From contig JAUIBA010000005.1 in assembly GCA_030427635.1 (NCBI GenBank), forward strand, positions 124,001 to 188,000: a stretch of 64,000 bases of DNA, written 5' to 3'. Under the pieces are notes generated by a model. It made no database searches, was not told the DNA's origin, and worked only from the letters and a program-made list of their open reading frames with translations. The translations under genes and the position numbers were made by a program. This DNA comes from Bacteroidia bacterium. GTDB lineage: Bacteria > Bacteroidota > Bacteroidia > Chitinophagales > Chitinophagaceae. This document shows positions 14,319-39,660 of the stretch, piece by piece (position 1 is the first letter of the stretch; each line of letters starts with the position of its first letter).

Positions 14319-14364
14319 CAAAACTACCTACCGCCGGAATGCATATAAAAAGGTTATACTTTAC
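14319..14364 (-). promoter_or_regulatory. late promoter of the lysis cluster
   Basis: The 12-bp phage motif GTTATACTTTAC (plus-strand reading) at 14353-14364 and a minus-strand -7 box TAGTTTTG at 14319-14326, separated by 26 bp. The predicted start falls about 25 nt ahead of the ATG at 14289. Same architecture as five other sites in the prophage. Confidence 0.72.
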
Positions 14365-14368
14365 CTGT

Positions 14369-16354
14369 TTAGTCGAATGACAAATCGTAAGAGAATAATG
14401 CCCAATAGCTGCGCACTAATGCTGAGGTACCTGTCGGTGGTGCTGGTGGCGTATTGTAATCTATATAAATGTGCATAATGTCCGTTGGATGTGGGGTAAT
14501 TGTATGGTCAAATATGCTGATGCACATAGTATCAACCTGTCCTGATGATAGCTTATTACCACGTACCCATACACGGCTAAGATTTGGAAATATCGGGTCT
14601 CCTGGATAATCAAATAGCTCGGGCACAAAGGAACTAACTCCATTACCAATATTACAATTATGGAAAACGACATAATATAACCATGTTGCACATGTAGCCA
14701 AAAAAGAAGTATCGACATTGCTTACACCTGTGAGGTCGTGGTCTCCAATTTTAAACACCCTTAGATATGGAGGTGCTTCAACGTGTGTTGAAGATATTAT
14801 CGCTCTGACTTTTGGCTCCCCTACTGGGGTCGACAGGGAAAAACTTGAAATAGTAGTAAAACCATCCGTATCTGGTCCTGCATGAAATACCCTCAAAGTC
14901 AACGTCTCCGGAACACCCGTCTGATTATACGTATGATATATATTAGCTGTGCCTGAAGTCATCCACCAATCGACCTGACCATCACCCCAATCTGTAATTG
15001 TTTGAGCATGAAGACCATAATCACTTATAACCTGATACACGAATTTACCAGCGTCCGGTACTAATGAGGTTAGAGTACTCCCAGTTTGAATAGTAAATTC
15101 AAGACGTTTATAAAAGTACACTGTACCGGGTCCGAGGTAATGTGTCTCACCCAATCCTCTATTGTAGAAAATTTTATTCCCAGCCCGCACAACAGTTCCT
15201 GCAGCCCCTGCAGCCGGTATTACAACTGTATTTAGGTAGGTAACGAAGTTATCAATGTCTATATCAGACTCAAATACATGTTCATCACTCAAATTAAAAG
15301 TAGGAGAATCCCCTACCAGCCATAACTGATTTATTGCTGAAGGGAAAATAATCTCACTATCCTCACCTAGTACGAATTCGATTAGCAGAAGCGGATCATC
15401 CTCCCCTACTATTGTGCCGCTGAGCGGATCATACTCCAGCAGGTCAATCTCTGAATGTCTGAGGGGGTAATTATTTTCGCTCTGGTCATTCCACTTTGCC
15501 CCATCAGGCTTTGTATACCTGCTGAAATCTATTTTGAAGTTATCAAAACTCATCAGCCTATTAAGTTTGTCCCATAAGTAATCGGGTATACCCTCATCAC
15601 CTCCTACCCGCCATCTGTAAAGATCTGCCGGCACACTATGAATGGTTCTACTTCTGTAACTCTGGTCTTCGAATATTGTATCGTTTGATGTAGGATTCTG
15701 ATACTCAACTGAGCTTTCAATACGCTGCTGAAATATTAAATCAGGGAAATACTCAAACAATATATCATATTCATTTTCTGTGTGTGTTGCTTCAACAAGC
15801 TGTGTACCAGGGTGGCCAGAATAATCAACTGTTTTGGTATATGGTTCAAAGTTCTTTTTTCCGCCCCGAATAGTTCGTTGATAGCTTCCACGCATGACGT
15901 GTACCGGCTCAGATACATAATAAGAGTTTGTCTCATCAGGATATACGCATTCTATTACTACATAGAAAACTGCTTCGGCATGGTCCGGAGGCAATGTGAA
16001 ATATGATGACACACCTACGGTGACAGTATATGTATTGTAGTCGGTACCATTCGGAGCGATATTACCAGCCACTGTTGCGCTGGGTACACCACCATAATCA
16101 AGGGTGTTTAATACGGTACCTTCTTCATCGAGAAAATGTATCAGGGCATTAGGTGCCAGCGAGTCAAAGTATATAGTCAGGAAATCACCCGTATTGCGCT
16201 TCTGGCAATACGGGATATATCTTTGGTACTCCCTTATTTTTTCTTCGTAAAATCCCTTGTCGAAAGGCCAGGTATTATACAGCTCCGGTAGCTGGTCGTT
16301 AGCCACTATAAACCGTAAGTCGTTACATCTGGTAATTCGCTCATACTTTGCCAT
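14369..16354 (-). CDS. phage distal tail or receptor-type protein
   Basis: 661 aa. The N-terminal region (KGFYEEKIREYQRYIPYCQKR) resembles baseplate/tail-tip proteins of Bacteroidota siphophages. Beta-rich modules follow, and the C-terminal 130 residues contain short leucine-rich-like repeats (FPNLSRVWVRGNKLSSGQVD). The position between tail-tip and lysis genes suits host recognition. Promoter motif and -7 box lie immediately upstream. No catalytic motif seen. Confidence 0.65.
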   Translation of the reverse strand: MAKYERITRCNDLRFIVANDQLPELYNTWPFDKGFYEEKIREYQRYIPYCQKRNTGDFLTIYFDSLAPNALIHFLDEEGTVLNTLDYGGVPSATVAGNIAPNGTDYNTYTVTVGVSSYFTLPPDHAEAVFYVVIECVYPDETNSYYVSEPVHVMRGSYQRTIRGGKKNFEPYTKTVDYSGHPGTQLVEATHTENEYDILFEYFPDLIFQQRIESSVEYQNPTSNDTIFEDQSYRSRTIHSVPADLYRWRVGGDEGIPDYLWDKLNRLMSFDNFKIDFSRYTKPDGAKWNDQSENNYPLRHSEIDLLEYDPLSGTIVGEDDPLLLIEFVLGEDSEIIFPSAINQLWLVGDSPTFNLSDEHVFESDIDIDNFVTYLNTVVIPAAGAAGTVVRAGNKIFYNRGLGETHYLGPGTVYFYKRLEFTIQTGSTLTSLVPDAGKFVYQVISDYGLHAQTITDWGDGQVDWWMTSGTANIYHTYNQTGVPETLTLRVFHAGPDTDGFTTISSFSLSTPVGEPKVRAIISSTHVEAPPYLRVFKIGDHDLTGVSNVDTSFLATCATWLYYVVFHNCNIGNGVSSFVPELFDYPGDPIFPNLSRVWVRGNKLSSGQVDTMCISIFDHTITPHPTDIMHIYIDYNTPPAPPTGTSALVRSYWALFSYDLSFD

Positions 16355-16357
16355 GAT

Positions 16358-16403
16358 GCAAATTACCTTGAGCTATAAGGTGCAAAAAAATACTATACTT
16401 TAC
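16358..16403 (-). promoter_or_regulatory. late promoter of the tail-tip gene, probably leaderless
   Basis: Motif ACTATACTTTAC at 16392-16403 and minus-strand TAATTTGC at 16358-16365 with 26 bp between. The box is a weaker match to TAnnTTTG. The predicted start coincides with the ATG at 16354. Confidence 0.58.
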
Positions 16404-17411
16404 TTACCAAGATAAGATAAGGTGCAATATGGTACTTATGACAGATACAAACGCTATACCAGCAAAAACGAATGATACCTTTTCACTAAGTGTTTTACCA
16501 GGCTGTGGTTTTGATAAAAAGTCGAATAAAACGTATATAAATAGAATATCTAATTCAGCAAATATTATTGCTAGCAATATTCTCCAAAAACCTATAATAC
16601 TGTTATACTTATGTGGTATATAAAACATAATGCTAATCGCAGCAAGAAAATATATTGTATTAGCTATTCTTGTTCGGTTGAAAGTTCTGCGGGCTTGTTT
16701 TATATTGTATCTGAGGTTTAAATTAATAATAGTACTGCAAGGGATTATGAGACTATCCCCTTTAACTGGTTTAAATCTCATAGCTGTGTTAGAATATCTT
16801 TCTGCATTTATTAAGGCAATAGTCTCTAATTCACCAGTATTGGGTGAAATCGTGTAATGTGCAAGAAACCCGGAATATAAAGTAGACTTTCCATTGTCAG
16901 ATATTTTTATGTCAATATTAGTTGATATAACTTTTCCTGTTCTATTACCTGACCTTAATTCTTTCAAGTCGCCTTTGAAATAGTAGTTCCAATAGTTTGT
17001 AAACCTTAGTACGGGAAAATATATATCCAATCTCAATAACCTTACTAAGGTATGAGATGCCCAACCCAATAGAATTGCCATGAATATGGTTATTAATACA
17101 TATCCCATACCATAAAGGAAATTATCAGATGTACACTCTGGCAATTGATTATTACTCAGGTCAGCATAAAACTTACTTATTGGCTGCCGAATGTTATTGT
17201 ATTTGAATCCAGTGAGTCTACCCAAAGTTAACAATGCGGTAAACTGAACTAAGAGACCCCAGAAAATACTGGTAATAAAGCGCTCTGCAAATGACCCTGC
17301 GGTGAATTGCTTTGTGAATTGCCCTGTATAGTAGAACCTTTTGAAAAAGAATCCAGGGATGAAGAGAAGTATTATTACTAATATGCTAACAAGGGTAATG
17401 TTTACTTCCAT
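16404..17411 (-). CDS. multi-pass membrane protein of unknown function (cargo gene)
   Basis: 335 aa with an N-terminal helix (LVSILVIILLFIPGFFF), two more around 45-65 and 100-130, a soluble domain of about 130 residues, and three C-terminal helices. No family recognised with certainty; the PGF-containing first helix recalls DUF6338-like membrane proteins. AT-rich compared with the structural genes, with its own host-type promoter through the upstream 72-aa gene. It looks like a lysogeny-expressed cargo gene, possibly superinfection exclusion (speculative). Confidence 0.7.
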   Translation of the reverse strand: MEVNITLVSILVIILLFIPGFFFKRFYYTGQFTKQFTAGSFAERFITSIFWGLLVQFTALLTLGRLTGFKYNNIRQPISKFYADLSNNQLPECTSDNFLYGMGYVLITIFMAILLGWASHTLVRLLRLDIYFPVLRFTNYWNYYFKGDLKELRSGNRTGKVISTNIDIKISDNGKSTLYSGFLAHYTISPNTGELETIALINAERYSNTAMRFKPVKGDSLIIPCSTIINLNLRYNIKQARRTFNRTRIANTIYFLAAISIMFYIPHKYNSIIGFWRILLAIIFAELDILFIYVLFDFLSKPQPGKTLSEKVSFVFAGIAFVSVISTILHLILSW

Positions 17412-17424
17412 ATAGTGAAAACGG

Positions 17425-17643
17425 TTATTGAACCAAAGTTAACTCTCTATTTCCAGAAAGTTTAATGGTTACTTCCGTTTCCCCCGATTCAATTTGTCGG
17501 ACAGCATCTTTATATTTTTGTGCATCCTCTGGATTGGAAAGAATTTCACGCACCTCATCACTCATCACATCCAAGTCAGATGCAAAGAAAGTCCTCAGTA
17601 CATTCTTGACAGCATTTCTGAATTCAGATAGTATCATGTTCAT
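17425..17643 (-). CDS. small protein of unknown function, partner of the membrane protein
   Basis: 72 aa, soluble, acidic. A helical N-terminal half (FRNAVKNVLRTFFASDLDVMSDEVREIL) is followed by a beta-rich end (TEVTIKLSGNRELTLV). It is 13 bp upstream of the 335-aa membrane protein and is the promoter-proximal gene of the pair. Confidence 0.65.
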   Translation of the reverse strand: MNMILSEFRNAVKNVLRTFFASDLDVMSDEVREILSNPEDAQKYKDAVRQIESGETEVTIKLSGNRELTLVQ

Positions 17644-17672
17644 GGCTTTCGATTGATGATGTAATTATGTGT

Positions 17673-17724
17673 CAAATATAGCATGCTAAACCTTGTGTTT
17701 CAAAATATTATTTATCTAGCATGC
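17673..17724 (-). promoter_or_regulatory. host-type promoter with operator-like repeats for the 72-aa/335-aa pair
   Basis: On the minus strand TTTG (17701-17704), 20 bp, then TATATTTG (17673-17680), a canonical Bacteroidota promoter. TAGCATGC occurs at 17679-17686 within a 10-bp palindrome and again at 17717-17724, flanking the -33 box. This suggests regulated expression from the prophage. Confidence 0.68.
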
Positions 17725-17937
17725 CATAATAAGGGGTAATATTTTAGGCATAATATTATAACGTTATTCTTAGTATATTATTGCTTAAGAACTTAGTAAA
17801 GTTAGAACTTTTACTAAAGCTCTTTGTTACATAATAAAGTCATGCTGTTACATAATTATCACATCTTACTAGTAAGAAACTATAACAATAAGCCAGCTAA
17901 CATCTGCTTGGGTTGCAAATCGCCAATCTAAAAAAAA
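17725..17937. other. AT-rich non-coding spacer
   Basis: Between two divergent cargo promoters; very AT-rich with several short repeats (GTTACATAAT appears twice near 17825 and 17850). No gene seen. Confidence 0.5.
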
Positions 17938-17992
17938 GTAACAAATTTGTTACCAATAAATTTGGTAGAAAGTAACATTTTTGTTACCTTTG
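17938..17992 (+). promoter_or_regulatory. hicAB promoter with twin operators
   Basis: A promoter TTTG (17961-17964), 20 bp, TACCTTTG (17985-17992). Two 16-bp palindromes bracket it: GTAACAAATTTGTTAC (17938-17953) and GTAACATTTTTGTTAC (17972-17987). They are 34 bp apart centre to centre, about three helical turns, and the second overlaps the -7 box. This fits autorepression by the HicB DNA-binding domain. Confidence 0.8.
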
Positions 17993-18012
17993 AATTCTCA
18001 AAGCAAGTCGAT

Positions 18013-18195
18013 ATGACATCAAAAAATTTACTTAAAATTCTAAAGGCCGAGGGGTGGTATAAGGTTGGTCAGGTCGGTAGCCACATTCAAATGAAGCACG
18101 ACTCAAAACCCGGGAAAGTGACAGTTTCTGACCATAAAGGAGATATACCAATTGGCACTCTAAATGCAATTCTAAAACAGGCAGGGCTTAAATAA
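18013..18195 (+). CDS. hicA: HicA-type toxin (mRNA interferase)
   Basis: 60 aa from MTSKNLLKILKAEGW: a double-stranded-RNA-binding-like HicA fold with the active-site His in VGSHIQMKH and the family ending DIPIGTLNAILKQAGL. An upstream in-frame start at 17947 would lie inside the promoter and operators, so the ATG at 18013 is preferred. First gene of the pair; HicA cleaves mRNA when free of HicB. Confidence 0.9.
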   Translation: MTSKNLLKILKAEGWYKVGQVGSHIQMKHDSKPGKVTVSDHKGDIPIGTLNAILKQAGLK

Positions 18196-18247
18196 GCCCT
18201 CCTGTTTACACAACATACTGTACTAATATTTTTAAAAACAACTAATC

Positions 18248-18643
18248 ATGAACGTGCGCGAACAACAAATTATTATTGAGCAAGCCAAAGATGGTACACT
18301 TTGGGGCCGATTACAATTAGGAGAAGACCTATTAACAACATCGGGCAAAGACCTGGACGAACTACAAAAAAACTTTTCCGAGCAATTAGAAGGATTTTAT
18401 CAAATTGATCCAAGAAAAATAAAGTTTGAATTTACTTATGATATTGGAGCTTTTTTTGAACACTATTCAGAATTGAATATTTCCGCTATTGCAGAAAAAG
18501 CCGGAATTAATGCATCACTTTTAAGACAATATAAAAACAGAGTAAAATTTCCATCTCAGGCACAAGTAAAAAAACTAGAAGACGCAATTCATGTAATAGG
18601 ACAAGAATTGACAAACGTTTCTTTAGTATCCGTAACAGATTAA
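18248..18643 (+). CDS. hicB: HicB-type antitoxin with C-terminal HTH
   Basis: 131 aa. The N-terminal part resembles the degenerate RNase-H-like HicB fold (IIIEQAKDGTLWGRLQ). The C-terminal third is a helix-turn-helix (ISAIAEKAGINASLLRQYKNRVKFPSQAQVKKLEDAI) able to bind the twin operators. It starts 52 bp after hicA. Neutralises HicA and probably represses the operon. Confidence 0.88.
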   Translation: MNVREQQIIIEQAKDGTLWGRLQLGEDLLTTSGKDLDELQKNFSEQLEGFYQIDPRKIKFEFTYDIGAFFEHYSELNISAIAEKAGINASLLRQYKNRVKFPSQAQVKKLEDAIHVIGQELTNVSLVSVTD

Positions 18644-18668
18644 AAGGATACTTATCAGCAAAAAAAGC

Positions 18669-18698
18669 AAGGGCTGTCTCATAAGAGCAGCCCTTTTT
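18669..18698 (+). terminator. terminator of hicAB
   Basis: Stem GGGCTG-CTC / GAG-CAGCCC with one bulged T and loop ATAA, followed by TTTTTT. Confidence 0.85.
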
Positions 18699-18700
18699 TA

Positions 18701-18826
18701 TCACTTAGAAACAACCAGGTTAATTAGGTATGCCAGACATATCAACCCGACAGCATATTCAACAATAATTACTGTGAATGGAATAGCCCACCATTTCTTA
18801 TCAAAATGTACTTTGGTTACTTTACG
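18701..18826 (-). pseudogene. hydrophobic reading-frame remnant without start codon
   Basis: An open minus-strand frame encodes KVHFDKKWWAIPFTVIIVEY and continues as a membrane helix ending LINLVVSK-stop. A stop codon lies just upstream and no ATG, GTG or TTG precedes the helix. Probably the tail of a lost membrane-protein gene. Confidence 0.35.
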
Positions 18827-19719
18827 TTATGAGTGTAAACGTAGGTTCTGTTATACACGTCAGATAGATATCCGATTACGTCAAACTCGCCTTCTTTCCT
18901 AGAAAAAAAGTAAGGTAAAATCCTTTCGACAGACCTTTCGTTACTAAAAAGCTGGTCGCAGTATACCAGCCAGGCGTTAGCTATGACGTCTTCGCCCAAT
19001 TCATTCAGCGCCCGCAAAACTAATTTGTAAGTTGAATTTGTTTTGTGCCCAAGTGTCGCGTCGGGAAAACTTTTATCTTTTATTTTTACTTTTCTCCTTT
19101 CGTTATATTGCACCTCAAGTTTTTCAACAAAATCAACCGCATTTTTTTCAGAATAATTAAAGGGAGCCGAAAATTTTTTTTCGGCAGCTTCTTCTCTCTT
19201 CTTTTCTTTTTCTCTATTTTTTTTATTAAGTTCCTGTTTATGTTCCTTTATAAGTTCCTTTTGTTTGCTGTTTTCAGCAAACAGTTTGTAGAAATCAGCA
19301 AATAGTTTGCTGTTTTCAGCAAACAGTTTGTAGAAATCAGCAAATAGTTTGCCATTTTCAGCTAATAGTTTGTTGTTTTCAGCAAACTGATATATTTCTG
19401 CAATTATTGGCACTATCATGTCATAGTTCACAGTGATGTGTTTAACCTTAGGATAGCCCTCAATGGTCACTGTAAGGATGCCAAGACTCTCAAATTTTAC
19501 AATTGCCTTGTCAATTCTGGATCTCTTTATCCCGGTTTCTTTTGTGATCGTGGCCGAGGAGTGGAAAAACTTTTTAAAACCGAAGGATTGGCTTTTTATC
19601 ACGAAATATTCGAACAAAACCACCTCTTCTAACGAAAAAAAGTTGAAATTATACTGCTGCAGACGCAATATATTTATCGCAAAAGGATTGAATTCCTTAG
19701 CTTTGCTATCAGACACCAT
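18817..19719 (-). CDS. winged-helix replication-initiator-like protein with six heptad repeats
   Basis: From ATG 19719 (MVSDSKAKEF) about 300 aa; a longer start at 19788 would run through a strong hairpin, so it is disfavoured. The N-terminal 95 residues look like a winged helix (TITKETGIKRSRIDKAIVKFESLGILTVTIEG). The middle has six 7-aa repeats (LFAENSK/LFADFYK type) and a Lys/Glu helix. The C-terminal domain includes ATLGHKTNSTYKLVLRALNELGED. The repeats are six contiguous 21-bp DNA units. Origin-like repeats upstream suggest a Rep or lambda O-like role (inference). Confidence 0.6.
   Translation of the reverse strand: MVSDSKAKEFNPFAINILRLQQYNFNFFSLEEVVLFEYFVIKSQSFGFKKFFHSSATITKETGIKRSRIDKAIVKFESLGILTVTIEGYPKVKHITVNYDMIVPIIAEIYQFAENNKLLAENGKLFADFYKLFAENSKLFADFYKLFAENSKQKELIKEHKQELNKKNREKEKKREEAAEKKFSAPFNYSEKNAVDFVEKLEVQYNERRKVKIKDKSFPDATLGHKTNSTYKLVLRALNELGEDVIANAWLVYCDQLFSNERSVERILPYFFSRKEGEFDVIGYLSDVYNRTYVYTHNVK
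19264..19389 (-). repeat. six tandem 21-bp repeats inside the initiator-like gene (iteron candidate)
   Basis: Exactly 126 bp = 6 x 21. Two adjacent 42-bp units are identical. Just downstream in the gene (19155-19260) the plus strand is nearly pure pyrimidine and AT-rich, like an unwinding element. Each unit encodes one heptad. Confidence 0.75.
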
Positions 19720-19730
19720 ATATTTTATTT

Positions 19731-19764
19731 TAACGAGTGCCACTTTGCGAGAGTGGCACTCGTT
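19731..19764. promoter_or_regulatory. 11-bp hairpin ahead of the initiator-like gene
   Basis: ACGAGTGCCAC / GTGGCACTCGT with a 9-nt loop, 12 bp before ATG 19719. On the plus strand it is followed by TTTGTTTTG, so it could terminate rightward transcription or act as a leader hairpin or operator for the gene. Confidence 0.55.
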
Positions 19765-19782
19765 TTGTTTTGTGAATATACG

Positions 19783-19904
19783 AACCAAATGGTTTATTCC
19801 TGAAAACCATTTGGTTTAGTTTGGGAGACCCATAGGAAACAAAATGGTTTACCACATTTAACCGTGGGTTTCCCGTGGGTTTTGTTTCGGAAACCCATTG
19901 GTTT
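19783..19904. repeat. origin-like repeat array upstream of the initiator-like gene
   Basis: Contains the inverted pair AACCAAATGGTTT / AAACCATTTGGTT (19783-19795, 19804-19816), AAATGGTTT, TGGGTTTCCCGTGGGTTT (19865-19882) and AAACCCATTGGTTT (19891-19904). The 18-mer and a 12-mer (TGGGTTTTGTTT) recur in the array inside the lambda O-like gene at 46.4 kb. Consistent with initiator-binding iterons. Confidence 0.62.
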
Positions 19905-20118
19905 AGTTCAGTAGGTTCAGCTTTTCTATCTTATCGGTATTTTCCCGGCATCCAGTTATATACCGTGTTACCGCATTATTCACCATTTCCTGCACATAAT
20001 GCCGCTCTGAAGGGAAGTACACAGAGGTCAGCTTATCCTCCCAGTTTTGCACCGCAAAGGTACCTGTAAGCAGCTCTATGATAGACAAGTCAAAGAAATA
20101 GCATATTTCATACCTTCG
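19903..20118 (-). pseudogene. 5'-truncated XRE-type regulator remnant
   Basis: Open from 20118 to the stop at 19903. It begins RRYEICYFFDLSIIELLTGTF, which resembles the last helix of an XRE helix-turn-helix (ICxFFDVSIDELL), then about 45 further residues. A stop lies directly upstream and the only in-frame start is TTG at 20088, after the HTH helix. The N-terminal DNA-binding helices are missing, so it is probably a fragment. Codon use looks genuine. Confidence 0.45.
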
Positions 20119-20122
20119 CTAC

Positions 20123-20368
20123 ATGAAAACTGTAATCATATCACTCAGCGTATTAACAATTGGACTCATTTCATGTTATAAAAACAAATGCCATACCTGC
20201 ACAACAAAGTTGTACAGAAATGGTATACTGCAGAATTCTACAGATACAAAGTATTGTGATAAAACCCGCAAAGAAATTAAAAGCTACGAAGGAACCACTA
20301 CGAGTACTAAGTACGACAGCGTACAAGGAATGGACGTTACAGGAACTTCAGTAACCACTTGTAACTAA
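20123..20368 (+). CDS. small cysteine-rich lipoprotein (cargo gene)
   Basis: 81 aa. A lipobox at LTIGLISC suggests lipidation at Cys18. The mature part has CHTC, a further Cys pair and many Thr/Ser (KSYEGTTTSTKYDSVQG). Opposite in direction to the flanking tail genes; a weak -7 box TACCTTCG is at 20111-20118. A lysogenic-conversion surface protein is plausible; function unknown. Confidence 0.65.
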   Translation: MKTVIISLSVLTIGLISCYKNKCHTCTTKLYRNGILQNSTDTKYCDKTRKEIKSYEGTTTSTKYDSVQGMDVTGTSVTTCN

Positions 20369-29729: not shown

Positions 29730-29730
29730 G

Positions 29731-30282
29731 TTACAGGTTGAAAATATTTGTCCTTCCGAATGGGTTTGTATGGCAATTGTTAAACTCTGGGTAATCAGCA
29801 GCATTTGCTTTTACAAACTCAAGCATCTTGTCAGTAAGTGCTGACATTTCATTATATGCCCGACTTTGCTTTTGGACCACACTTGCCGATGTACTGTTTT
29901 CAGCTTTCCCCTTCACCTCCCCAATTGTTGTAGTGAATGTGATATTATCACAGCTCCAATTGTAGTAGATGTAATTGGCTATCGGTGTGGTCTTTCTTAA
30001 CGCTCCTTCCTGTATTTCATCAGGAGTATTAATGAGGCCTGTCCAGTAATCCATATTCCCGTGACAATTTTCAAATTCGTATCCATACAACAAGCGTTCA
30101 AATCGTGCTGTTAGCGGGTCCATACTATCTGACAGTGCTTTCCATAGGGGATAACCCAGCGCTAGCCTAAGATATTCGGTCTCGTACTTCGAAATGAAAT
30201 AGTCGAGATTTCCAGAAACATCTTCGGACGTTAAGCCAGGTATGTTTATCTCCCCTATGAAATATGACTGATCGATGAGCAT
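29731..30282 (-). CDS. putative head-tail adaptor
   Basis: 183 aa, acidic, helical. YLRLALGYPLWKALSD and TTPIANYIYYNW resemble the small head-completion proteins found after capsid genes in Bacteroidota siphophages (DUF6712-like, from memory). Next but one downstream of the capsid gene. Confidence 0.55.
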   Translation of the reverse strand: MLIDQSYFIGEINIPGLTSEDVSGNLDYFISKYETEYLRLALGYPLWKALSDSMDPLTARFERLLYGYEFENCHGNMDYWTGLINTPDEIQEGALRKTTPIANYIYYNWSCDNITFTTTIGEVKGKAENSTSASVVQKQSRAYNEMSALTDKMLEFVKANAADYPEFNNCHTNPFGRTNIFNL

Positions 30283-30291
30283 TGGTAGTGC

Positions 30292-30540
30292 TTATATGTT
30301 TTCGTTGTCATCAGTGGTAGTTGCACCCGCTTTGGCGGAAACCTTGTTTTCTTTCTCGAACTCTGCCTGCTTTGATGCATCCTTGTATTTAGCAAAGCGG
30401 CTGGCTACGAGGTTACTGGCGGTGAGTGGGTGTACATTGTACTCCCGGCCAACTACCAACATCTGTTTCTTTGAATTAGAGATGCCGATTACCGTTTCTG
30501 TTTTGCGGAGGTTTACGGCTCCTCCTTTGGCTGTATTCAT
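30292..30540 (-). CDS. small capsid-adjacent protein of unknown function
   Basis: 82 aa. The core VIGISNSKKQMLVVGREYNVHPLTASNLVASRFAKY is probably a compact beta-alpha domain, followed by a low-complexity tail. 62 bp after the capsid gene; perhaps a head decoration or connector factor. Confidence 0.55.
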   Translation of the reverse strand: MNTAKGGAVNLRKTETVIGISNSKKQMLVVGREYNVHPLTASNLVASRFAKYKDASKQAEFEKENKVSAKAGATTTDDNENI

Positions 30541-30602
30541 TATCTAACTGATTAAATGGTGTATAATTTGGTTCTACTTGCCTTTGGCTGTATGCGGTAA
30601 GC

Positions 30603-32018: not shown

Positions 32019-32020
32019 AT

Positions 32021-32767
32021 TTAATTTGTTGTTTTGGAAAGTCCTTTTGTTAACATTTCAAAATTGAATCCCTTCGTTGGCGGCTCGCTTTCGTTTTTGG
32101 GTGGCATTACCGGCCCTGACTCTGCAAGTGCTATATGTTGGGTAATCAGCTTCTTTATTTCGAGTTGCTTTTCATACTGGAGCCCCTTCAGTGCCTTTTC
32201 CGTATCACGTAACAGCTTATTCTTTTCACTTTCGATATCCACACTCTTCATTCCCTCAAAGCCTGTTTCCTCATTGCACCCCAATGACACAACAGAAATC
32301 TCAAACAGGTTAATTTCTTTCACTACGAAGCAATCGTTATCACTATCCCACTCGCAGCTTGACCACACATATTGGTACCCAATACTGAACTGATTGAGCG
32401 TTCCGGATTTCAACTGTTCAAGACATATATCTCCCTGCGGTATCTTATCGATTATTGCTTCGAAATACAGTCCCTTCTCATCCTCTACCAGCTTCGTGAT
32501 GCGCCCCAACGGATTGGTCATATCGTGCATCCATAGATATATTATCTTCCGATTGGTTGAACTTTCCGGGCCACGCTCTTGTATTGACTTGGAGCAACAG
32601 CCTTTTATCAACATATCTCTGGCGCTATCAACATTTCCCCACACAGCAGCATAACCGCTTATAGTGCGGCTATCAGCATTGACCTTCATCTCATTCGCCT
32701 CAATAGCTTTGAAATGTATGGGGCGACTACTGTCCTTTTTGGGTATCTGTTTGGCTATTACTGTCAT
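32021..32767 (-). CDS. HK97-family prohead protease
   Basis: 248 aa. The S78-type protease core shows His81 in YLWMHD and Ser128 in NQFSIGYQY; ISGYAAVWGNVDSARDMLIKG is the typical N-terminal strand. It processes the capsid delta domain. It overlaps the portal gene by 41 nt and is 2 bp before the capsid gene in transcription order. Confidence 0.92.
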   Translation of the reverse strand: MTVIAKQIPKKDSSRPIHFKAIEANEMKVNADSRTISGYAAVWGNVDSARDMLIKGCCSKSIQERGPESSTNRKIIYLWMHDMTNPLGRITKLVEDEKGLYFEAIIDKIPQGDICLEQLKSGTLNQFSIGYQYVWSSCEWDSDNDCFVVKEINLFEISVVSLGCNEETGFEGMKSVDIESEKNKLLRDTEKALKGLQYEKQLEIKKLITQHIALAESGPVMPPKNESEPPTKGFNFEMLTKGLSKTTN

Positions 32768-34139
32768 TACTACCTTTTTTTGAGAGGTTTATGATTGTGC
32801 TTACTAACTGCAGCTGGGCTTCGTCCATATCAAAGACAAGCCTGTCATATATTGCATTGGTAACTTTTTCGTAGCCGCATACTACCCGCCAGTCATTGAG
32901 TGTTATTATACCCATCAGGAAGCGCACACGACATGTTTCATTGTTCTTCCAGTCAACATCTGACTTCTCCTTTTTGTTCTCCTGCAGTACATCTACGTCC
33001 TCAAATGACGGGAACAGATACAATCCGCTTTCTGAAAGCCTGAGATGGTTGTTAAGTGACATTGCTATACTGGCTGCTTCAGGAATGACCACGTTACTGT
33101 ATAATGTTTTCTCGTCCTGATTAGCATTTTCATATGTCGCACCTTCCTTGCGTGGCATTAATGTTCTGGGAACATTGAGGACAGCGAATATTGCTGCTGC
33201 ATCCACTTCAGTTTCAGCAAAAGGGTCCAGGTCTTTGATAGACATTGCAACGTTGATGTAATCAATTGGAAGGTTAGTAATGGCTACCGGGCTTCTATTC
33301 CCGGTCAATCCATACGTTTTGCCGTAATCATCTAGTAGCTGCTCACGTTCCTTTGTAGTTAGTGCTTTCATGCCATCTGCGTCCTGTTTCCGGCTAACTA
33401 TAAACCCGAGAGCACCTCGTTTTGTATATATGACATTTCGAGCTTCATAAACAGCCAGAAGATTACATATTGCTTTCTGTGCTGACAACAAAGGGCTTTT
33501 GCCATGTAGCTTAAGGTCATTGGCGTACAAACTGGCATGCTTTGTATATATAACCTTATCTGGAGATATAGCCACTGTCTGTGAACCCATGGATACATCA
33601 TAACTCTGTATAAGGTCGCTGATAGAGGTCGCTGTAAGTATCTTGAATTGCGCCTGCGGCCTGATATAGACTGTATCTGCAGGCAAATTGAGCATTGTAG
33701 ATACATTCTTATAGTTGAATGATAATGTACCGGGTATATTCATGTACAGGTAGTTTTTGCCTGTTACCTTTTTCAGTGCCACCCATTCATATATAAGCTC
33801 CTGAAAGTTTTGCAACGGATTGGGTTCAGACAGCAGCCGGTTAAGATTCTTGTTGTCATAAACCACTTCATCATTACTTATTTTCCTCACTTGCCACTTT
33901 GCCTGTGCTACTCTGAATGCGATATGATGTACAGGTGCAAATACCTCTGGCATTGTGTGGTAGATGTTTATTAGGCTACTGTCTGAATACTGCCCCCATA
34001 CTGCATTCATAAACCGTCCTAGTTCATTATTGGACAAGTTGAAGAAATAGTTACCATGAGGTGTTGACAAGTCTACATCTACATTCTTTCTCGCGAAAAC
34101 AGGAAGACCAGCCATTATATGTGATAATGCCGAACTCAT
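32727..34139 (-). CDS. phage portal protein (HK97 type)
   Basis: 470 aa. Visible features: AYEARNVIYTKRGALGFIVSRKQDADG, LNRLLSEPNPLQNFQELIYEWV, and the clip/stem region MSIKDLDPFAETEVDAAAIFAVLNVPRTLMP. Gene order terminase-portal-protease-capsid supports this. The start overlaps the preceding small gene by 4 nt. Confidence 0.9.
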   Translation of the reverse strand: MSSALSHIMAGLPVFARKNVDVDLSTPHGNYFFNLSNNELGRFMNAVWGQYSDSSLINIYHTMPEVFAPVHHIAFRVAQAKWQVRKISNDEVVYDNKNLNRLLSEPNPLQNFQELIYEWVALKKVTGKNYLYMNIPGTLSFNYKNVSTMLNLPADTVYIRPQAQFKILTATSISDLIQSYDVSMGSQTVAISPDKVIYTKHASLYANDLKLHGKSPLLSAQKAICNLLAVYEARNVIYTKRGALGFIVSRKQDADGMKALTTKEREQLLDDYGKTYGLTGNRSPVAITNLPIDYINVAMSIKDLDPFAETEVDAAAIFAVLNVPRTLMPRKEGATYENANQDEKTLYSNVVIPEAASIAMSLNNHLRLSESGLYLFPSFEDVDVLQENKKEKSDVDWKNNETCRVRFLMGIITLNDWRVVCGYEKVTNAIYDRLVFDMDEAQLQLVSTIINLSKKGSNDSNSQTDTQKGQ

Positions 34140-34342
34140 TTGATGTCTTCGGCCTCCTGTACCGTTTCATCCGGGCGTGAAAAGTTGTGTATAAGCAGCA
34201 TGTATGCTGCCGCAGCCTCCTTGTCATCTAAATTTGACCAGCGAACGTGAGCATCCAACAGCTCCTGCATAAGTTGCTTACGCAGACTACCTGTTTTTGC
34301 CTTCTTTTTCTTGATGCTTATTGTAAATGGCCCGATGTTCAT
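34136..34342 (-). CDS. small phage protein, first gene of the head operon
   Basis: 68 aa: basic N-terminus (FTISIKKKKAKTGSLRK), then a helix (LMQELLDAHVRWSNLDDKEAAAAYMLLIH). Its stop overlaps the portal start by 4 nt. It lies directly behind the promoter at 34350-34395, with a predicted leader of only about 4 nt. Confidence 0.62.
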   Translation of the reverse strand: MNIGPFTISIKKKKAKTGSLRKQLMQELLDAHVRWSNLDDKEAAAAYMLLIHNFSRPDETVQEAEDIK

Positions 34343-34349
34343 TACAGAA

Positions 34350-34395
34350 CAAAAGTCCTCCTACACACATGTGTGGGCAAATAGTTATACTTTAC
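34350..34395 (-). promoter_or_regulatory. late promoter of the head operon
   Basis: Motif GTTATACTTTAC at 34384-34395 and minus-strand GACTTTTG at 34350-34357, 26 bp apart. A TTTG -33 box (34378-34381) stands 20 bp from the -7 box, so both a host-type and a phage element are present. Confidence 0.72.
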
Positions 34396-34400
34396 CGACT

Positions 34401-35948
34401 TTATGAATTCACAACTACCTGCCACAAATGCGCAAAGTTTGTCCGGAAGTATTTTGCCAACCCAGCACTTGAGTCAGGAGCGTCATCATGAGCATTCTTA
34501 TTTGTACCGCTCTGGTCTTGCCTGTATGATGTTAGCTCTTCTATAAAACGTCTGTACTCAGGTAATTCAAGGCAATCCTCCCGGAAAACAAAATGATTCC
34601 TGATAAATGCAGCAGCCTCCAATATGCGTGTATGTTTGTTGGTTGTATTGTTTACAGCATCAACCTCACAGTCGCTTCCATCTTCCTCAATTGCCCTTTT
34701 GATATTGGTCCTGAATAGTCGCCAGCCGCTGTTACTTTCAATTACTGCTGAGTTACAAGCATGCTGCTTTAGGAACTCCACACATCTTGGCTCATTAACA
34801 TCAGTCCCTTTGGTATTAAAGATAATATCTGCCACATATATCTTATTGCCAATTAGATACCCAACGATGGCACACAAACTGTCACCCCCTTTATCTGCAG
34901 GGTCAATATGCGTGTGCCGGTACTCTGACAGCTTCTCAACAAGTATTTCTTTAGGATTGTAGTACTTAAGATCAGAGTCCGGGAATAATAGACCTTCTCG
35001 CGGCTTGGGGTTCTGCTGATACTGTCGCTGAAAGGCTATGCGTACCTCCTCGTCTGCATTGTCTCGCATCTTCTTGAGGTCCTCTACTGTATGCATAGAG
35101 GGGTCAAGTGCTTCCAGTTCTCCGGCATCATTAACCCCCAGCGCTGGCAGCACAAGCTCTTCCCACTCTCCACCTTCCGAAGCGAGCCCCTCAGTCGCTT
35201 TCAGGTACCCTATCAGGTCCATCGGGTGAAGTCGCTGCATGATGACAATTACTGGAGTATCCCGGCTGTTCAGTCGGCTCTTAATGGTAGAGTTCCAGCG
35301 CCGGTTTACACGCATCCGCTTGATATCCGCATCCGCATCGTCTGGCTTGATGGCATCGTCAATGATCAGTGCTCCGCCAAACTTCCGCTTCTGCCCTATT
35401 GTTATAAGCAACTCATCGAGCCATTCTTCTATTTCGTCAGTCTCATCAGTCCTTGTACCAGCACCAAAACCAGTCACCTGCCCTGCTGCACCGGTTGCAT
35501 ACACTCCTCCGCCGGCCGTGGTATACCATTTCTTTTTACTGTCGGTGGACTTCTTTATACGCACATCAGGAAACAGACGGCGATATTCAGGTGACTGTAC
35601 AATATCTTTTGTTCCCTCGCTATTGTCGAAAGCCAATGCATCACTGGCAGATAGATGTATGAACTTCGCAGCTGGGTTCAGCGATAGCCCATGAGCAATA
35701 AAGTTCTTTACTGCCAGCTCTGTCTTTCCATATCGGGGAGGGATACTTATAAGCAGCCGGCGGCATTTACCCGACAGGACACGCTCCAGCGCCCTGGCTA
35801 TCTGCTTGTGATGCTTACGAACAACAAACTTCCTGTTGTGCAGATTTTTGTAAAAGTATCTCGTGGAGAACTCCAATGACCTGAGACACTTAACAGTCGC
35901 CAGCTTCTGTTTCTTAATTGCCCGTATTTCTTCCTTTGTAACAGACAC
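34401..35948 (-). CDS. terL: terminase large subunit
   Basis: 515 aa. The ATPase domain has Walker A PPRYGKTE (70-77) and Walker B GGALIIDD (Asp197-Asp198). The C-terminal nuclease includes HIDPADKGGD, VIESNSGW and HDDAPDSSAGL, whose Asp residues match RNase-H-like terminase nucleases. It packages DNA through the portal. The gene is complete; starts 2 bp after the zinc protein gene. Confidence 0.95.
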   Translation of the reverse strand: MSVTKEEIRAIKKQKLATVKCLRSLEFSTRYFYKNLHNRKFVVRKHHKQIARALERVLSGKCRRLLISIPPRYGKTELAVKNFIAHGLSLNPAAKFIHLSASDALAFDNSEGTKDIVQSPEYRRLFPDVRIKKSTDSKKKWYTTAGGGVYATGAAGQVTGFGAGTRTDETDEIEEWLDELLITIGQKRKFGGALIIDDAIKPDDADADIKRMRVNRRWNSTIKSRLNSRDTPVIVIMQRLHPMDLIGYLKATEGLASEGGEWEELVLPALGVNDAGELEALDPSMHTVEDLKKMRDNADEEVRIAFQRQYQQNPKPREGLLFPDSDLKYYNPKEILVEKLSEYRHTHIDPADKGGDSLCAIVGYLIGNKIYVADIIFNTKGTDVNEPRCVEFLKQHACNSAVIESNSGWRLFRTNIKRAIEEDGSDCEVDAVNNTTNKHTRILEAAAFIRNHFVFREDCLELPEYRRFIEELTSYRQDQSGTNKNAHDDAPDSSAGLAKYFRTNFAHLWQVVVNS

Positions 35949-35950
35949 AC

Positions 35951-36253
35951 TTACGGCTCGATTTCAGTGAATGATATTATTGGACCACGGTCCGGGCTCC
36001 ATTGATTTTGTGTTTTACCCTCTCCATTACATAGAGGACATACATTGCTACCGTTATCCAGCCTACCTATTCCGAGACATTGAGTGCATGTATACCATCC
36101 ATCCATTTCAGTGGTCTTGGCATCTTTGATAGCATTTAGTCCAGATACAGCTGTCTGATCCTCTGAATAGGTAATAAGTGCGTCCTCAATCTGCGCCATG
36201 CTCAATGAACGATATGACACCTTTTTCTGCTCTGCTACTTTTATTGTTGCCAT
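35951..36253 (-). CDS. small zinc-ribbon protein ahead of terminase
   Basis: 100 aa from MATIKVAEQKKV. The C-terminal half has YTCTQCLGIGR and VCPLCNGEGK, a DnaJ-like four-Cys knuckle. The ATG at 36253 is preferred to 36283, because the promoter -7 box lies at 36258-36265 between them. The predicted transcript starts at the ATG itself. Confidence 0.7.
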   Translation of the reverse strand: MATIKVAEQKKVSYRSLSMAQIEDALITYSEDQTAVSGLNAIKDAKTTEMDGWYTCTQCLGIGRLDNGSNVCPLCNGEGKTQNQWSPDRGPIISFTEIEP

Positions 36254-36257
36254 AAAA

Positions 36258-36303
36258 CAAAAGTACCCCAAGCCATATGGCACAGAAAATTGTTATACTT
36301 TAC
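36258..36303 (-). promoter_or_regulatory. late promoter of the terL operon, predicted leaderless
   Basis: Motif GTTATACTTTAC at 36292-36303, 26 bp, minus-strand TACTTTTG at 36258-36265. The expected start (4-5 nt past the box) is the A of the ATG at 36253. Confidence 0.75.
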
Positions 36304-36319
36304 CTTTATTATTCATTTT

Positions 36320-36892
36320 ATGAGTCCTGAAAAGAAAATTGATGATGTACTAAAGGCGCTAAACAGCGCATACATTAAAAGTATATCAATTATTAAATAC
36401 AAAGATGGAAACATAACAGTGGTTAGCCATCCTGATATAAGCTATAGATATGTATCCATGTCAGATTTATTCATTTCAGTCATGTTTGAGAACTTAAATG
36501 ATGATGAAATCAATCGCGATGTGAGTCTGATTATTGATTTCCTTCTTGACAATGGATTAGTTGGAGTAACTAAAACAAATACGATTCCCGCTAGGGATGA
36601 TAAGTATTACATCACTTGGAAAGGCCGTGTTTTGATTGAAAACGGAGGCTATACTAAAGAGAAAGAGTTGAGAGAGCAAAAAGAACGAATTTCTGAACTA
36701 AAATACAACATGACTATTGCTGGCGCATGGCTAGCTGGTATTGGTTCTATTTTATTAGTCATCATTGAAGTACTCAAAAACGCAAAATGGGTAGTTAGTA
36801 TAGAAGCTGGTACACTTGCAATAATTCTGCTTATGGGTATATTGCTTGGCATTTCGATATGGCAGTTGATACGACCACAATCAAAAAACTAG
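36320..36892 (+). CDS. membrane protein with N-terminal winged-helix-like domain (cargo gene)
   Basis: 190 aa from MSPEKKIDDVL; the longer TTG start at 36290 is unlikely. Residues about 5-110 look like a small alpha/beta or winged-helix domain (RDVSLIIDFLLDNGLVGVTK ... YYITWKGRVLIENGGY). A coiled segment and two membrane helices follow (MTIAGAWLAGIGSILLVIIEVL, LAIILLMGILLGISIWQLI). Opposite in direction to the packaging genes and AT-rich, so an inserted cargo gene; phage defence or exclusion is a possibility only. Confidence 0.72.
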   Translation: MSPEKKIDDVLKALNSAYIKSISIIKYKDGNITVVSHPDISYRYVSMSDLFISVMFENLNDDEINRDVSLIIDFLLDNGLVGVTKTNTIPARDDKYYITWKGRVLIENGGYTKEKELREQKERISELKYNMTIAGAWLAGIGSILLVIIEVLKNAKWVVSIEAGTLAIILLMGILLGISIWQLIRPQSKN

Positions 36893-37368
36893 TATTCTTC
36901 CTCCAGCTCACGATTGATTGCATCAATTTCATCTGGAGATAGCCGTGTATCTAATTGCTGAGGTGTGACCGGTGTAACAGTTGGGTTATCATCATCTTTA
37001 GGTCTGTAGTGTACAGTGGTACCCTCAATGTCTGCTATCAGCTTCTCATACTGCAATATCACCCGCAGCCCTTCCGGTGTGCCTGCAAACTCAGGTTTAA
37101 GGGTTCGTATTCGCATTCTCAATTCCTGAACCTTCTGTTTCCGTTTAACTTCAAGAGTATCATCATCATACTTAACCATCCGCTCCTTTGCCTTTTTTAA
37201 TAGCTCATAAGCATGGCGGTCTGATTTTGCCCAGGCCTTGTCTGTGATATTTTTGATAATAAGAGCCGTAGGCGCTCCATCATATACCCATCCGAGTATA
37301 GCTGTGAGGCGCCGCTCAAACTCGATTTTATCGGGCCTGTTAACCGTTCTCAGTTGTCCATAGGCCAT
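36889..37368 (-). CDS. terS: terminase small subunit (putative)
   Basis: 159 aa. N-terminal HTH-like segment (TAILGWVYDGAPTALIIKNITDKAWAKSDRHAYELLKKAK), then a long charged helix and an acidic end. Position two genes upstream of terL fits. Start codon overlaps the stop of the 97-codon gene before it. Identification is by context and fold pattern. Confidence 0.7.
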   Translation of the reverse strand: MAYGQLRTVNRPDKIEFERRLTAILGWVYDGAPTALIIKNITDKAWAKSDRHAYELLKKAKERMVKYDDDTLEVKRKQKVQELRMRIRTLKPEFAGTPEGLRVILQYEKLIADIEGTTVHYRPKDDDNPTVTPVTPQQLDTRLSPDEIDAINRELEEEY

Positions 37369-37595
37369 TATGGATATATTGTATTGACTATTTCTATCAA
37401 GTCGTTCAGTTCTTCAATACTCGCACGAAGACGTAATGCCTGTAATTCACGCATCTTCTTTACATCATCTGGAATATTATCGATTGGATTGTTATCGAAT
37501 GCAGTAAGAGCCTGAATGCGATTGTTAAGTCTTGACGTAAGCAGATCTTTGATTGGTTGAACAGCCATATTGATAATCTTTATGTTTTCTGACAT
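37368..37595 (-). CDS. small phage protein next to terS
   Basis: 75 aa from MSENIKIINMAVQPIKDLL; a start at 37661 would run through the hairpin cluster margin. Two helices, LRLRASIEELNDLIEIVNTIYP at the end. Ends exactly at the terS start. Confidence 0.58.
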   Translation of the reverse strand: MSENIKIINMAVQPIKDLLTSRLNNRIQALTAFDNNPIDNIPDDVKKMRELQALRLRASIEELNDLIEIVNTIYP

Positions 37596-37642
37596 ACGCC
37601 GGGTTTTAGTCCGGCAAAAATAAGCTTTGTATATCAACCGGT

Positions 37643-37730
37643 ACGGTGGCCCGGAGGCCACCGTGTTCTTTTCAGTGGATTTGTGTCAGGGTGAAAATCC
37701 ACTCAAAAGACCCTCTGCAAGAGAGGTAAA
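37643..37730. other. hairpin cluster beside the terminase genes (candidate cos/pac or RNA structure)
   Basis: Three inverted repeats in under 90 bp: ACGGTGGCC-CGGA-GGCCACCGT (37643-37664), GTGGATTT/AAATCCAC (37675-37702) and CCTCT-GCA-AGAGG. The ends lack a U-run in the leftward sense, so they are not ordinary terminators of the upstream gene. Confidence 0.45.
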
Positions 37731-37756
37731 AAATACAGCTTAACACCCAACAATCG

Positions 37757-39307
37757 TTACTCGTTTATTGTTAAGGCAATATTGGGTTGATATTCATTAT
37801 TATCCAAGGAATCAACGTGTATTTCCTCTGCTTTAATTTCAGGAAACTCCAATTTGATTGCCGCAGGATCACCCTTATAAAACACTAACACATTCTGATG
37901 AGTGCGCCCCGCTTTCCTACTGCTTGAAAACTGCTTATGCACCCTAACAGGCAGGCTACCGGCTACATTCACCAGAATAAGTTCGTTATAATACCTGCAG
38001 CCGGCGTCCTCAAAAGCGTTGATAGTATCCCTTACAAAATTCTTGTAGTATCCCTTACTGTCTCGTATCTCACTTACCACGAAGCACGCGAATCGATTGT
38101 CTTTTAACCGCTTGGCCCACCGTTTAACAATCTCCCTGTAGTTTATCAGGAATTCATCATAGTTCATATTACTCAGGTCTCGGCTATCGTCACTGTATTG
38201 CTCCAGGTCATGATATGGAGGGCAAGAGAACAGGAAGTCAAATAATGTATTATCAGGTAGTATCGTCTCAATATCAAGAGCATCTCCACTGTACCACTTA
38301 ACATATCCTCTTTGTGTTCCCGACAACTGCGGCATATCCTTTAAAGCTATTGCCTGGCTCTCATTTGCTGCCACTTGCTCTGGCCGTAAATCTGTCCCAA
38401 CATAATCCAATCCCAGCAGTGACGCTACTATTCCTCTCACGGAACCACCTGCAAACGGGTCTCCGCATACGGCTGTCGCCGGGCAAAACCAGCGATACAA
38501 CACCTCACAAAGCACCGGGTCAAATATGCTTGCCCCTGAATATATATGCATTCCTCTCTTCTCAGCTTCCGCGAGTATTTCATCCCATGTTGGGTCACGC
38601 TGTAAGAGTACCCTCATCTTATTCCGTAGATTATATACAGCGCCAGACTGCCCGCTTCTCGATATCAATTCGACATCTTCCCTCGTCTCCTGGCTTGCTA
38701 TACCCAGCTGGTGCCACTTCTTTTTCCTTTCCTGCCAATACCCCTGTCTGGTATCAAGTATACTGAAAGGTGGAACTATATAACGGTCTTTTAGCGATAC
38801 GTGCGCTATGTCGGCAATGTCTTTTGAATCTTCACCTGTTGTCAGAGCCGCAAAGCCGTACATATCAAACTCAGACAGTTCAATATCAAAGCGGATTTCA
38901 TCCATAGAGATGTTAAATACATCCATGAAGTCTGTTAACCCATCATTAGTAACATTCGCATATATAGACGAATACACTAACACCAGTTTTGCAGCCTCTT
39001 TCTTGTTGTTACATCTGATGAACGTTGCGGGCAATTCGTCTGGTACTGGTATCCCCTCCTCTATCAACTCCGTAAGCATCATTGTCCTGTGCTTCCCATC
39101 CAGGCAATATATGTTCTCACCATCCTGCCAAACATAGAAAGGCTGGCTGAACTGATTCTCAATTATGGAACGTTTTAGCTTCTGCCGCCTTGTCTCAGAT
39201 AATTGCTTGAAGTTATCTGATTGCAGGAATTGCAATTTTCTCCAACTAACAGGAGATGTGCCTATTACACGAGATGATAAGGTTGGGTGTTTGGTTGTCG
39301 TTTCCAT
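37757..39307 (-). CDS. ParB-domain / DNA methyltransferase fusion
   Basis: 516 aa. Residues about 1-170 are a ParB-like nuclease domain (SIIENQFSQPFYVWQDGENIYCLDGKHRTMMLTELI). The C-terminal part is a SAM-dependent DNA methyltransferase: motif I DPFAGGSVRG and motif IV SCPPYHD (an adenine or N4-cytosine type (S/N/D)PPY). Phages use such proteins to modify their DNA against restriction. It has its own late-type promoter. No cognate endonuclease next to it. Confidence 0.86.
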   Translation of the reverse strand: METTTKHPTLSSRVIGTSPVSWRKLQFLQSDNFKQLSETRRQKLKRSIIENQFSQPFYVWQDGENIYCLDGKHRTMMLTELIEEGIPVPDELPATFIRCNNKKEAAKLVLVYSSIYANVTNDGLTDFMDVFNISMDEIRFDIELSEFDMYGFAALTTGEDSKDIADIAHVSLKDRYIVPPFSILDTRQGYWQERKKKWHQLGIASQETREDVELISRSGQSGAVYNLRNKMRVLLQRDPTWDEILAEAEKRGMHIYSGASIFDPVLCEVLYRWFCPATAVCGDPFAGGSVRGIVASLLGLDYVGTDLRPEQVAANESQAIALKDMPQLSGTQRGYVKWYSGDALDIETILPDNTLFDFLFSCPPYHDLEQYSDDSRDLSNMNYDEFLINYREIVKRWAKRLKDNRFACFVVSEIRDSKGYYKNFVRDTINAFEDAGCRYYNELILVNVAGSLPVRVHKQFSSSRKAGRTHQNVLVFYKGDPAAIKLEFPEIKAEEIHVDSLDNNEYQPNIALTINE

Positions 39308-39329
39308 GTTTTACTGAGCTTTACTGAAC

Positions 39330-39375
39330 CAAAAGTAGGCTTAGCCAAAGGGTTATGGGACATGTTATACTTTAC
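39330..39375 (-). promoter_or_regulatory. promoter of the ParB-methyltransferase gene
   Basis: Motif GTTATACTTTAC at 39364-39375, 26 bp, minus-strand TACTTTTG at 39330-39337. Predicted leader about 18 nt. Confidence 0.75.
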
Positions 39376-39614
39376 CCAGCAGGCCACACAATACAAAGCA
39401 TTAAATTCATACTATTTCTGGCATGATACACCCCCAGACCCCCTCGTTAACTGATTACTTCAGGCCGTACAGCTTCAACTGCATACGTCATTGTATTACC
39501 GGTAGTTTTACTCTTGCATCTACTGATATCCAGTTGCCAACCGGGCAGCAGATTTAAATCAGATTGGCCTCTCTTCTGTCTTCCTGTTGACGTTACCAGT
39601 AAGTGGTAGTAACA
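39376..39614 (-). ncRNA. possible untranslated phage transcript
   Basis: Leftward of the promoter at 39615-39660 about 230 bp contain no ORF longer than 14 codons on the minus strand before the next promoter. Either a small RNA or a long leader reading through to the methyltransferase gene. Confidence 0.35.
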
Positions 39615-39660
39615 CGAAGGTATTTTGTGGTAATTGCATCTGATTTCTTCTATACTTTAC
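39615..39660 (-). promoter_or_regulatory. sixth copy of the late promoter architecture
   Basis: Motif TCTATACTTTAC at 39649-39660, 26 bp, minus-strand TACCTTCG at 39615-39622 (one mismatch to TAnnTTTG). Confidence 0.55.

Follow-up and report, generated by a model that had tools for sequence, protein, structure and literature searches.

Putative activator-dependent late promoters in a Bacteroidota prophage, with a small DnaA-domain-IV protein as candidate activator

We analysed a 64-kb stretch of DNA (G000:C1:124001-188000, hereafter the window) from a Bacteroidota host genome of 4.25 Mb. The window contains a 44.5-kb prophage at positions 11512-56004, with its late gene cluster on the minus strand and an early region that likewise runs leftward (Table 1). 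Our subject is a 12-bp sequence, here termed the tag, which recurs ahead of the late genes at a fixed distance from a -7 box of the TAnnTTTG type, together with the early phage protein that may read it, a predicted DnaA-domain-IV (DnaA-IV) protein.

The ten-base core of the tag, TATACTTTAC, occurs seven times in the window, always on the plus strand, where 0.27 copies are expected; none of 100 shuffles reached seven. An earlier examination of the letters (the sequence-only reading) had reported these seven positions, their single orientation and the invariance of the last ten bases, and all of this was borne out. Read on the transcribed strand, the tag is GTAAAGTATA(AC) and lies upstream of leftward genes. 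The full 12-mer (GTAAAGTATAAC as read in the promoters) is exact at five of the seven copies, those at 16392 and 39649 deviating at the first two bases. Exactly 26 bp from the tag, six copies are accompanied by a minus-strand -7 box, again as had been reported: three of the six boxes match TAnnTTTG exactly, two have one mismatch and one (TAATTTGC) has two, the last agreeing with the TAnnTTGY box in PMC9723704 (this and the other papers are cited here from excerpts). The seventh copy, at 55778, has no box at that distance and no counterpart in the two related phages described below. It is therefore omitted from the 16-site counts that follow (17 tag copies in three phages minus this one), and the proposed seven-member class keeps six members, the seventh copy probably not belonging to it.

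A blind search for 9-mers that precede -7 boxes by a constant distance recovered the motif on the minus strand at five window sites, against at most two in 100 Markov shuffles. The core alone was rejected as a marker: it occurs 45 times in the host genome (reversed control 18), and 38 of these copies lie outside the prophage. Motif and exact box together occur three times in the whole genome, each time in the prophage, and never in the control. In the genome-wide check suggested by the sequence-only reading, the motif by itself is thus not specific to the prophage, and the motif with an exact box is.

Another of its suggestions, a motif search of related phages, revealed the same layout in two relatives. 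The terL of the first, on contig C136 of genome G017, is ~60% identical to that of the window, and the structural genes are co-linear. This phage has six GTAAAATATAA(C/T) sites, i.e. GTAAAATATAAC or its T-ending form, all on the same strand and followed 26 bp on by a box-like octamer, which is an exact TAnnTTTG at five of the six. The second, G634 (IMGVR_UViG_3300002098_000070), was recovered through the conserved C-terminus of its CI-like protein, and a blind k-mer search of it at a fixed gap before -7 boxes gave GTAGTCTATAG; its tag, GTAGTCTATAGY, is present in four copies (4980, 21323, 23448 and 23681) with spacers of 26, 26, 27 and 26 bp. The blind 9-mer search found five sites in G017 and three in G634, each compared with at most two in 100 Markov shuffles on that strand, and the most repeated 11-mer on that strand is the tag in each of the three phages.

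Positions 1-3 (GTA) and 7-10 (TATA) are constant across the 16 sites, giving the shared element GTA---TATA, and the spacer between tag and box is 26 bp at 15 sites and 27 bp at one. Positions 4-6 are instead specific to the phage: AAG at all six window sites, AAA at all six in G017 and GTC at all four in G634. The box is an exact TAnnTTTG at 11 of the 16, the site with the 27-bp spacer included, and ten tags start 0-8 nt past the end of the preceding gene. By position, four promoters are shared among the three phages and a fifth between two (Table 1). They comprise one where the same tail gene ends, one between terL and the portal gene, a tandem pair whose intervening stretch can be aligned and, in the window and G017, one upstream of terL. 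P16403 and the G017 site at 3384 have no assigned counterpart.

Table 1. Features of the prophage, with tag, spacer and -7 box of each putative promoter and the positions of its counterparts
Feature	Position	Strand	Details
Late promoter P14364	14319..14364	-	GTAAAGTATAAC, 26 bp, TAGTTTTG; motif 4 nt past end of ORF 14369-16354; G017 4612, G634 4980
Late promoter P16403	16358..16403	-	GTAAAGTATAGT, 26 bp, TAATTTGC
Late promoter P34395	34350..34395	-	GTAAAGTATAAC, 26 bp, GACTTTTG; G017 20726, G634 21323
Late promoter P36303, upstream of 35951-36283 and terL	36258..36303	-	GTAAAGTATAAC, 26 bp, TACTTTTG; G017 22292; no G634 promoter at this place
Late promoter P39375, second of tandem pair, before methyltransferase gene	39330..39375	-	GTAAAGTATAAC, 26 bp, TACTTTTG; G017 24523, G634 23448
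Late promoter P39660, first of tandem pair	39615..39660	-	GTAAAGTATAGA, 26 bp, TACCTTCG; G017 24767, G634 23681
Stretch without long ORF between tandem promoters	39376..39614	-	G-rich block conserved in three phages (small-ORF list, three-way alignment)
Seventh motif copy	55778..55789	+	Between end of CI-like gene and attR
attL	11512..11556	+	Left prophage boundary; 3' part of tRNA-Arg (tRNA 11482-11556, ARAGORN)
Integrase	11662-12888	+	PF00589; adjoins attL
Late gene cluster	12923..39307	-	Methyltransferase, terL, portal, prohead protease, capsid, tail genes, probable lysis module; served by the putative promoters
DnaA-domain-IV protein, 97 aa	54121..54414	-	PF08299, E 9.8e-12; LGYKNKQNV at recognition helix; best activator candidate; orthologues in G017 and G634
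Cro-like helix-turn-helix protein	54702..54989	-	Alignment; AlphaFold2 model, mean pLDDT 76.9; weak likeness to Cro/Xre folds, best E 0.057
CI-like S24 repressor	55026..55769	+	PF00717, 5.7e-10; N-terminal part diverges from that of G017
attR	55960..56004	+	45-bp direct repeat of attL

With the box set at -12 to -5, following the numbering in PMC9723704 and PMC6847099, the tag occupies -50 to -39 and is followed by a T-tract at -37 to -33 (T in 12, 11, 14, 13 and 8 of the 16 sites at columns 13-17). The proposal of a replaced -33 box found little support: the motif lies upstream of -33 and the T-tract fills that place in most sites; TTTG itself stands at -36 to -33 in three of 16. The -33 element is also weak in host promoters of Flavobacterium johnsoniae, as excerpted from PMC6847099. 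The missing -33 box is weak evidence, since Flavobacterium promoters show little at -33 and the T-tract occupies the same place here. Compared with Bacteroidota housekeeping promoters, which have the same -7 box (PMC7366714, PMC9723704, PMC6847099), the phage sites differ by their additional upstream tag and by a G at -10 in four of 16 boxes (27-bp site counted), a base described as virtually absent there in F. johnsoniae promoters (PMC6847099).

Taken together, the tagged sites very probably constitute a genuine class of phage late promoters with an activator site, and this core of the sequence-only reading is strongly supported by the two relatives, where layout, places and spacing recur with a concertedly altered motif. 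The sequences show the sites with their spacing and synteny, the concerted change of the motif, the predicted fold of the DnaA-IV protein and a recognition helix that varies with the motif in the three phages; promoter activity, late timing, protein binding and activation are what we infer from them, "late" being an assignment from gene content. Among the genes said to be served, terminase, portal, capsid and methyltransferase are supported; "lysis" and "tail-tip" are labels of a more conjectural kind.

The layout resembles two known systems. Like the late promoters of P2, it provides several late operons with their own copies of a site for a phage-protein activator (PMC3931495, excerpt); the P2 consensus, however, is TGT-N12-ACA and its activator Ogr a CX2CX22CX4C zinc protein, whereas the shared element here is GTA---TATA (no dedicated scan for TGT-N12-ACA was made) and the candidate a DnaA-IV protein. 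A zinc-finger activator common to the phages was not found either, the zinc-like protein at 41008-41337 being without homologues in the other two at BLAST 1e-3. Like the middle promoters of T4, the sites pair a phage element, at fixed spacing, with a -10-type element of the host (PMC2988021, excerpt), but the MotA box takes the place of the -35 element, with its centre at -30, while the tag has its centre near -44.5 and stops 26 bp short of the -7 box. Defining features of both families are lacking here, and the sites belong to neither.

A joint change of all sites of a phage, at constant place and spacing, is the trace that a changed trans-acting reader would produce. A host reader should be the same for each phage; the concerted change fits a co-evolving, phage-encoded activator. 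At BLAST 1e-3, four early-region open reading frames (ORFs) of at least 45 aa connect all three phages: the CI-like and DnaA-IV proteins in all phage pairs, and the Cro-like protein and a 101-aa protein (46898-47203) each via the window protein. The DnaA-IV gene lies just after the CI/Cro switch, and its product measures 97-106 aa in the three phages. At the recognition helix it reads LGYKNKQNV in the window, LGYPGKQNV in G017 and LGYSGSANA in G634, so that KQNV is kept in the first two and replaced by SANA in the third, in parallel with the tags. Judged from these alignments, it is the only one of the four whose predicted DNA-reading helix tracks the tag.

The DnaA-like protein is likewise the best fitting of the binders named by the sequence-only reading, which had also listed small helix-turn-helix (HTH) and zinc proteins. 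The zinc protein, which is only weakly zinc-like, was rejected for want of the homologues mentioned above. The small HTH protein looks Cro-like and does not track the motif: its helices diverge between the window and G017, and G634 and a further phage, G635, share RITLGR although G635 has no tag. The CI-like protein was also tried as the reader and rejected: its N-termini differ between the window and G017 though their tags differ by one base, and the G017 and G634 proteins align over nearly their full length (58%) though their tags differ more. The C-terminal parts of the CI-like repressors at L147 2563-3306, L429 9692-10477 and L430 9572-10507 are 68-75% identical to that of the window protein.

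An AlphaFold2 model of the window DnaA-IV protein (mean pLDDT 87.7) has as its best PDB matches complexes of the DnaA DNA-binding domain with DNA (3pvp and 1j1v, TM 0.86-0.89). Aligned with E. coli DnaA, the protein has K63, Q64 and N65 opposite H, T and T of DHTTV. We take these to be DnaA residues 434-436, numbered partly by count from a review passage, and DHTTV, which is also visible in the 1j1v alignment, to be the DnaA recognition signature. The candidate has both the PF08299 sequence family and the HTH fold, and with them the TAT part of the site recalls the DnaA box; unlike the initiator, it lacks an AAA+ domain (97 aa) and has KQNV in place of the DHTTV signature, and the 3' half of its site differs. 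It is thus a member of the DnaA domain IV family and not a DnaA initiator. In E. coli DnaA, Arg399 reads TTA and the helix 434-451 reads TnCACA (PMC5742627, excerpt). Matching TTATNCACA to GTTATAYTTTAC would set the invariant TAT against box positions 2-4, with the variable triplet at positions 6-8.

As the best explanation of these observations, we propose that the host's main RNA polymerase would read the late promoters, with the host housekeeping sigma factor binding the TAnnTTTG box. A phage activator would bind the tag in fixed orientation and at fixed distance, beside the T-rich -33 region, and would recruit or stabilise the polymerase, so that all six promoters would come on together and, with them, about five blocks of genes (packaging, head, tail and probable lysis). 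The activator would most likely be the early 97-aa DnaA-IV protein, whose arginine loop may read the invariant TAT side while its recognition helix reads the phage-variable triplet. We give this explanation as a whole a probability of about 0.6, and we likewise favour the DnaA-IV protein as the activator.

Several points weigh against this proposal. As the three phages are related, their sites are not independent, and the gene after the tandem pair is a methyltransferase in the window and G017 and a terminase small subunit in G634. The G634 signal weakens with shorter words (for the 8-mer, three sites versus two in five shuffles) and, for the 6-mer with exact boxes, does not rise above shuffles (two versus two). 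The DnaA-box register of the tag is a hypothesis set by eye and post hoc, an AT-rich motif easily matches half a DnaA box, and box position 1 varies (T in ten, C in six of the 16). The readers weighed were early-region proteins, and a late activator need not be encoded by an early gene. The DnaA-IV protein could serve replication; a second, canonical one is encoded in G017 and G634. That second protein, with a DHTT helix, is encoded at L145 6823-7308, L429 2693-3118 and L430 4975-5379 (G017, G634 and G635, respectively) and was absent among the window proteins scanned with Pfam. G635 shares the CI-like and Cro-like proteins, has only the canonical DnaA-IV protein and has no such tag sites in the 44,208 of its 44,801 bases examined. 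This supports the link between DnaA-IV and tag, although as a control it is weak because the structural genes of G635 are mostly unrelated.

Wider searches also count against it. Among 35 genomes of the genus, tag and box were found together at eight places in three genomes, always 26 bp apart: this prophage has three of them, the G017 phage four and G023 (G023:C322; L308 6864-6909) one, where GTAAAATATAAC, 26 bp and TATCTTTG precede a gene that does not look phage-derived, by either chance or host use of the same arrangement. A sample of 298 genomes of the order added one 26-bp place, inside a long ORF of G166. The pattern did not recur among 394 genomes of the family, where 28 others have one or two scattered places and the reversed-pattern control is scattered too, and in viral contigs a fixed gap of 26 gave 22 stretches with one match each. 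With a variable gap, the commonest gaps among the viral matches listed were 30 for the 10-mer and 23 and 29 for the 12-mer, a gap of 26 occurring at least 11 times with the 12-mer. The loci of 89 distant terL relatives (nine plus the best 80 of 194; 1.1 Mb) contain no 12-mer with up to two mismatches and an exact box at 26; GTA---TATA with a box at 26 is never exact there and occurs three times with one mismatch, as at several other gaps. A de novo search of those loci of at least 11 kb found no such tag, and shuffles were not exceeded in the G017:C66 region or in four phage records, two of which contain DnaA-IV relatives. Two other repeated words came up before -7 boxes above three shuffles, namely ATAAATTT four times at gap 21 in L315 and TGGCTCCG ten times at gap 17 in L383, the latter probably a coding repeat. 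Profile A2 of the DnaA-IV protein gave no confirmed match in viral contigs and, in the 394 family genomes at 1e-12, its own protein only. Profile A6 matched in 259 of 396 genomes of the order, and the matches listed, its own excepted, lie in ORFs 405-628 aa long, a size that fits chromosomal DnaA.

If the promoter class is real, its activator could be another phage protein, such as the Cro-like protein, the 101-aa protein at 46898-47203 or a DNA-binder that we did not recognise. The 101-aa protein is linked across the three phages as well, many early proteins of the prophage have no Pfam match, and the Cro-like protein of G017 shows a weak similarity to sigma70 region 4 that falls short of the curated cut-off (E 7.9e-4). 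The 101-aa protein itself is without a Pfam match, however, the helix of the Cro-like protein varies out of step with the motif and its model weakly resembles Cro/Xre folds, and no homologue of the zinc protein turned up in G017 or G634 at BLAST 1e-3; we regard this alternative as possible and rather unlikely, and still far ahead of those that follow.

The tag could act without any phage activator, either as a UP-like element rich in A and T or as a site for a host regulator, and simply boost the promoter. Its composition, the adjoining T-tract and the apparent host gene with tag, spacer and box in G023 would fit, yet G1 and T2 are invariant, the changes are concerted and phage-specific, seven of the eight places in the genus fall in two phages and no other genome among the 394 of the family has three; we consider such a role improbable. 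A repressor operator that silences late genes in the lysogen is slightly less probable again. Repeated sites near promoters are typical of operators and the copy at 55778 lies beside the CI-like gene, but the tag keeps a strict distance from the -33/-7 region, on its upstream side, and the N-terminus of CI has changed between the window and G017 where the tag has changed by one base. Chance repetition in an AT-rich phage, for which the 38 core copies elsewhere in the host genome might speak, has hardly any standing given the shuffles and the agreement of spacing, strand and place in three phages.

The stretch between the tandem promoters is possibly a leader RNA, a small RNA or a cos/pac packaging site; its predicted RNA fold is weak (-5.85 kcal/mol, three sequences). 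A long-ORF-free stretch is also present at L145 4524-4721 and L445 8449-8635, and the conserved block near AGTT..AGGGGTCTGGGG differs by one or two bases in G634. Used as a marker, the G-rich block led to three contigs, two of them nearly identical, with no tag pair around it, and was set aside. Elsewhere in the prophage, a 200-aa ORF without a Pfam match (36290-36892, plus strand) runs opposite to the late region and is a possible moron, and there are two phage DNA methyltransferases (37757-39307 and 47212-48759), one with a ParB-like N-terminal part. At and to the right of attR, 138-bp tandem repeats with tRNA-like sequence (55969-56454) give Rfam tRNA matches.

In the open-licence literature, covered by titles and the starts of abstracts and with most subscription papers outside the search, we found no activator-driven late-promoter class for Bacteroidota phages. 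Returning to the DnaA-IV protein as activator, we lean slightly towards the view that the DNA-reading domain of DnaA, without its ATPase, became the late-gene switch of a lineage of temperate Bacteroidota phages, and that its specificity shifts in step with all late promoters while the minor-groove side and the 26-bp geometry stay fixed. If true, this would provide a testable late switch for Bacteroidota phages, a new job for the box-reading domain of DnaA, and a set of naturally paired variants of protein and sites in which a regulator and its many sites would have changed together.

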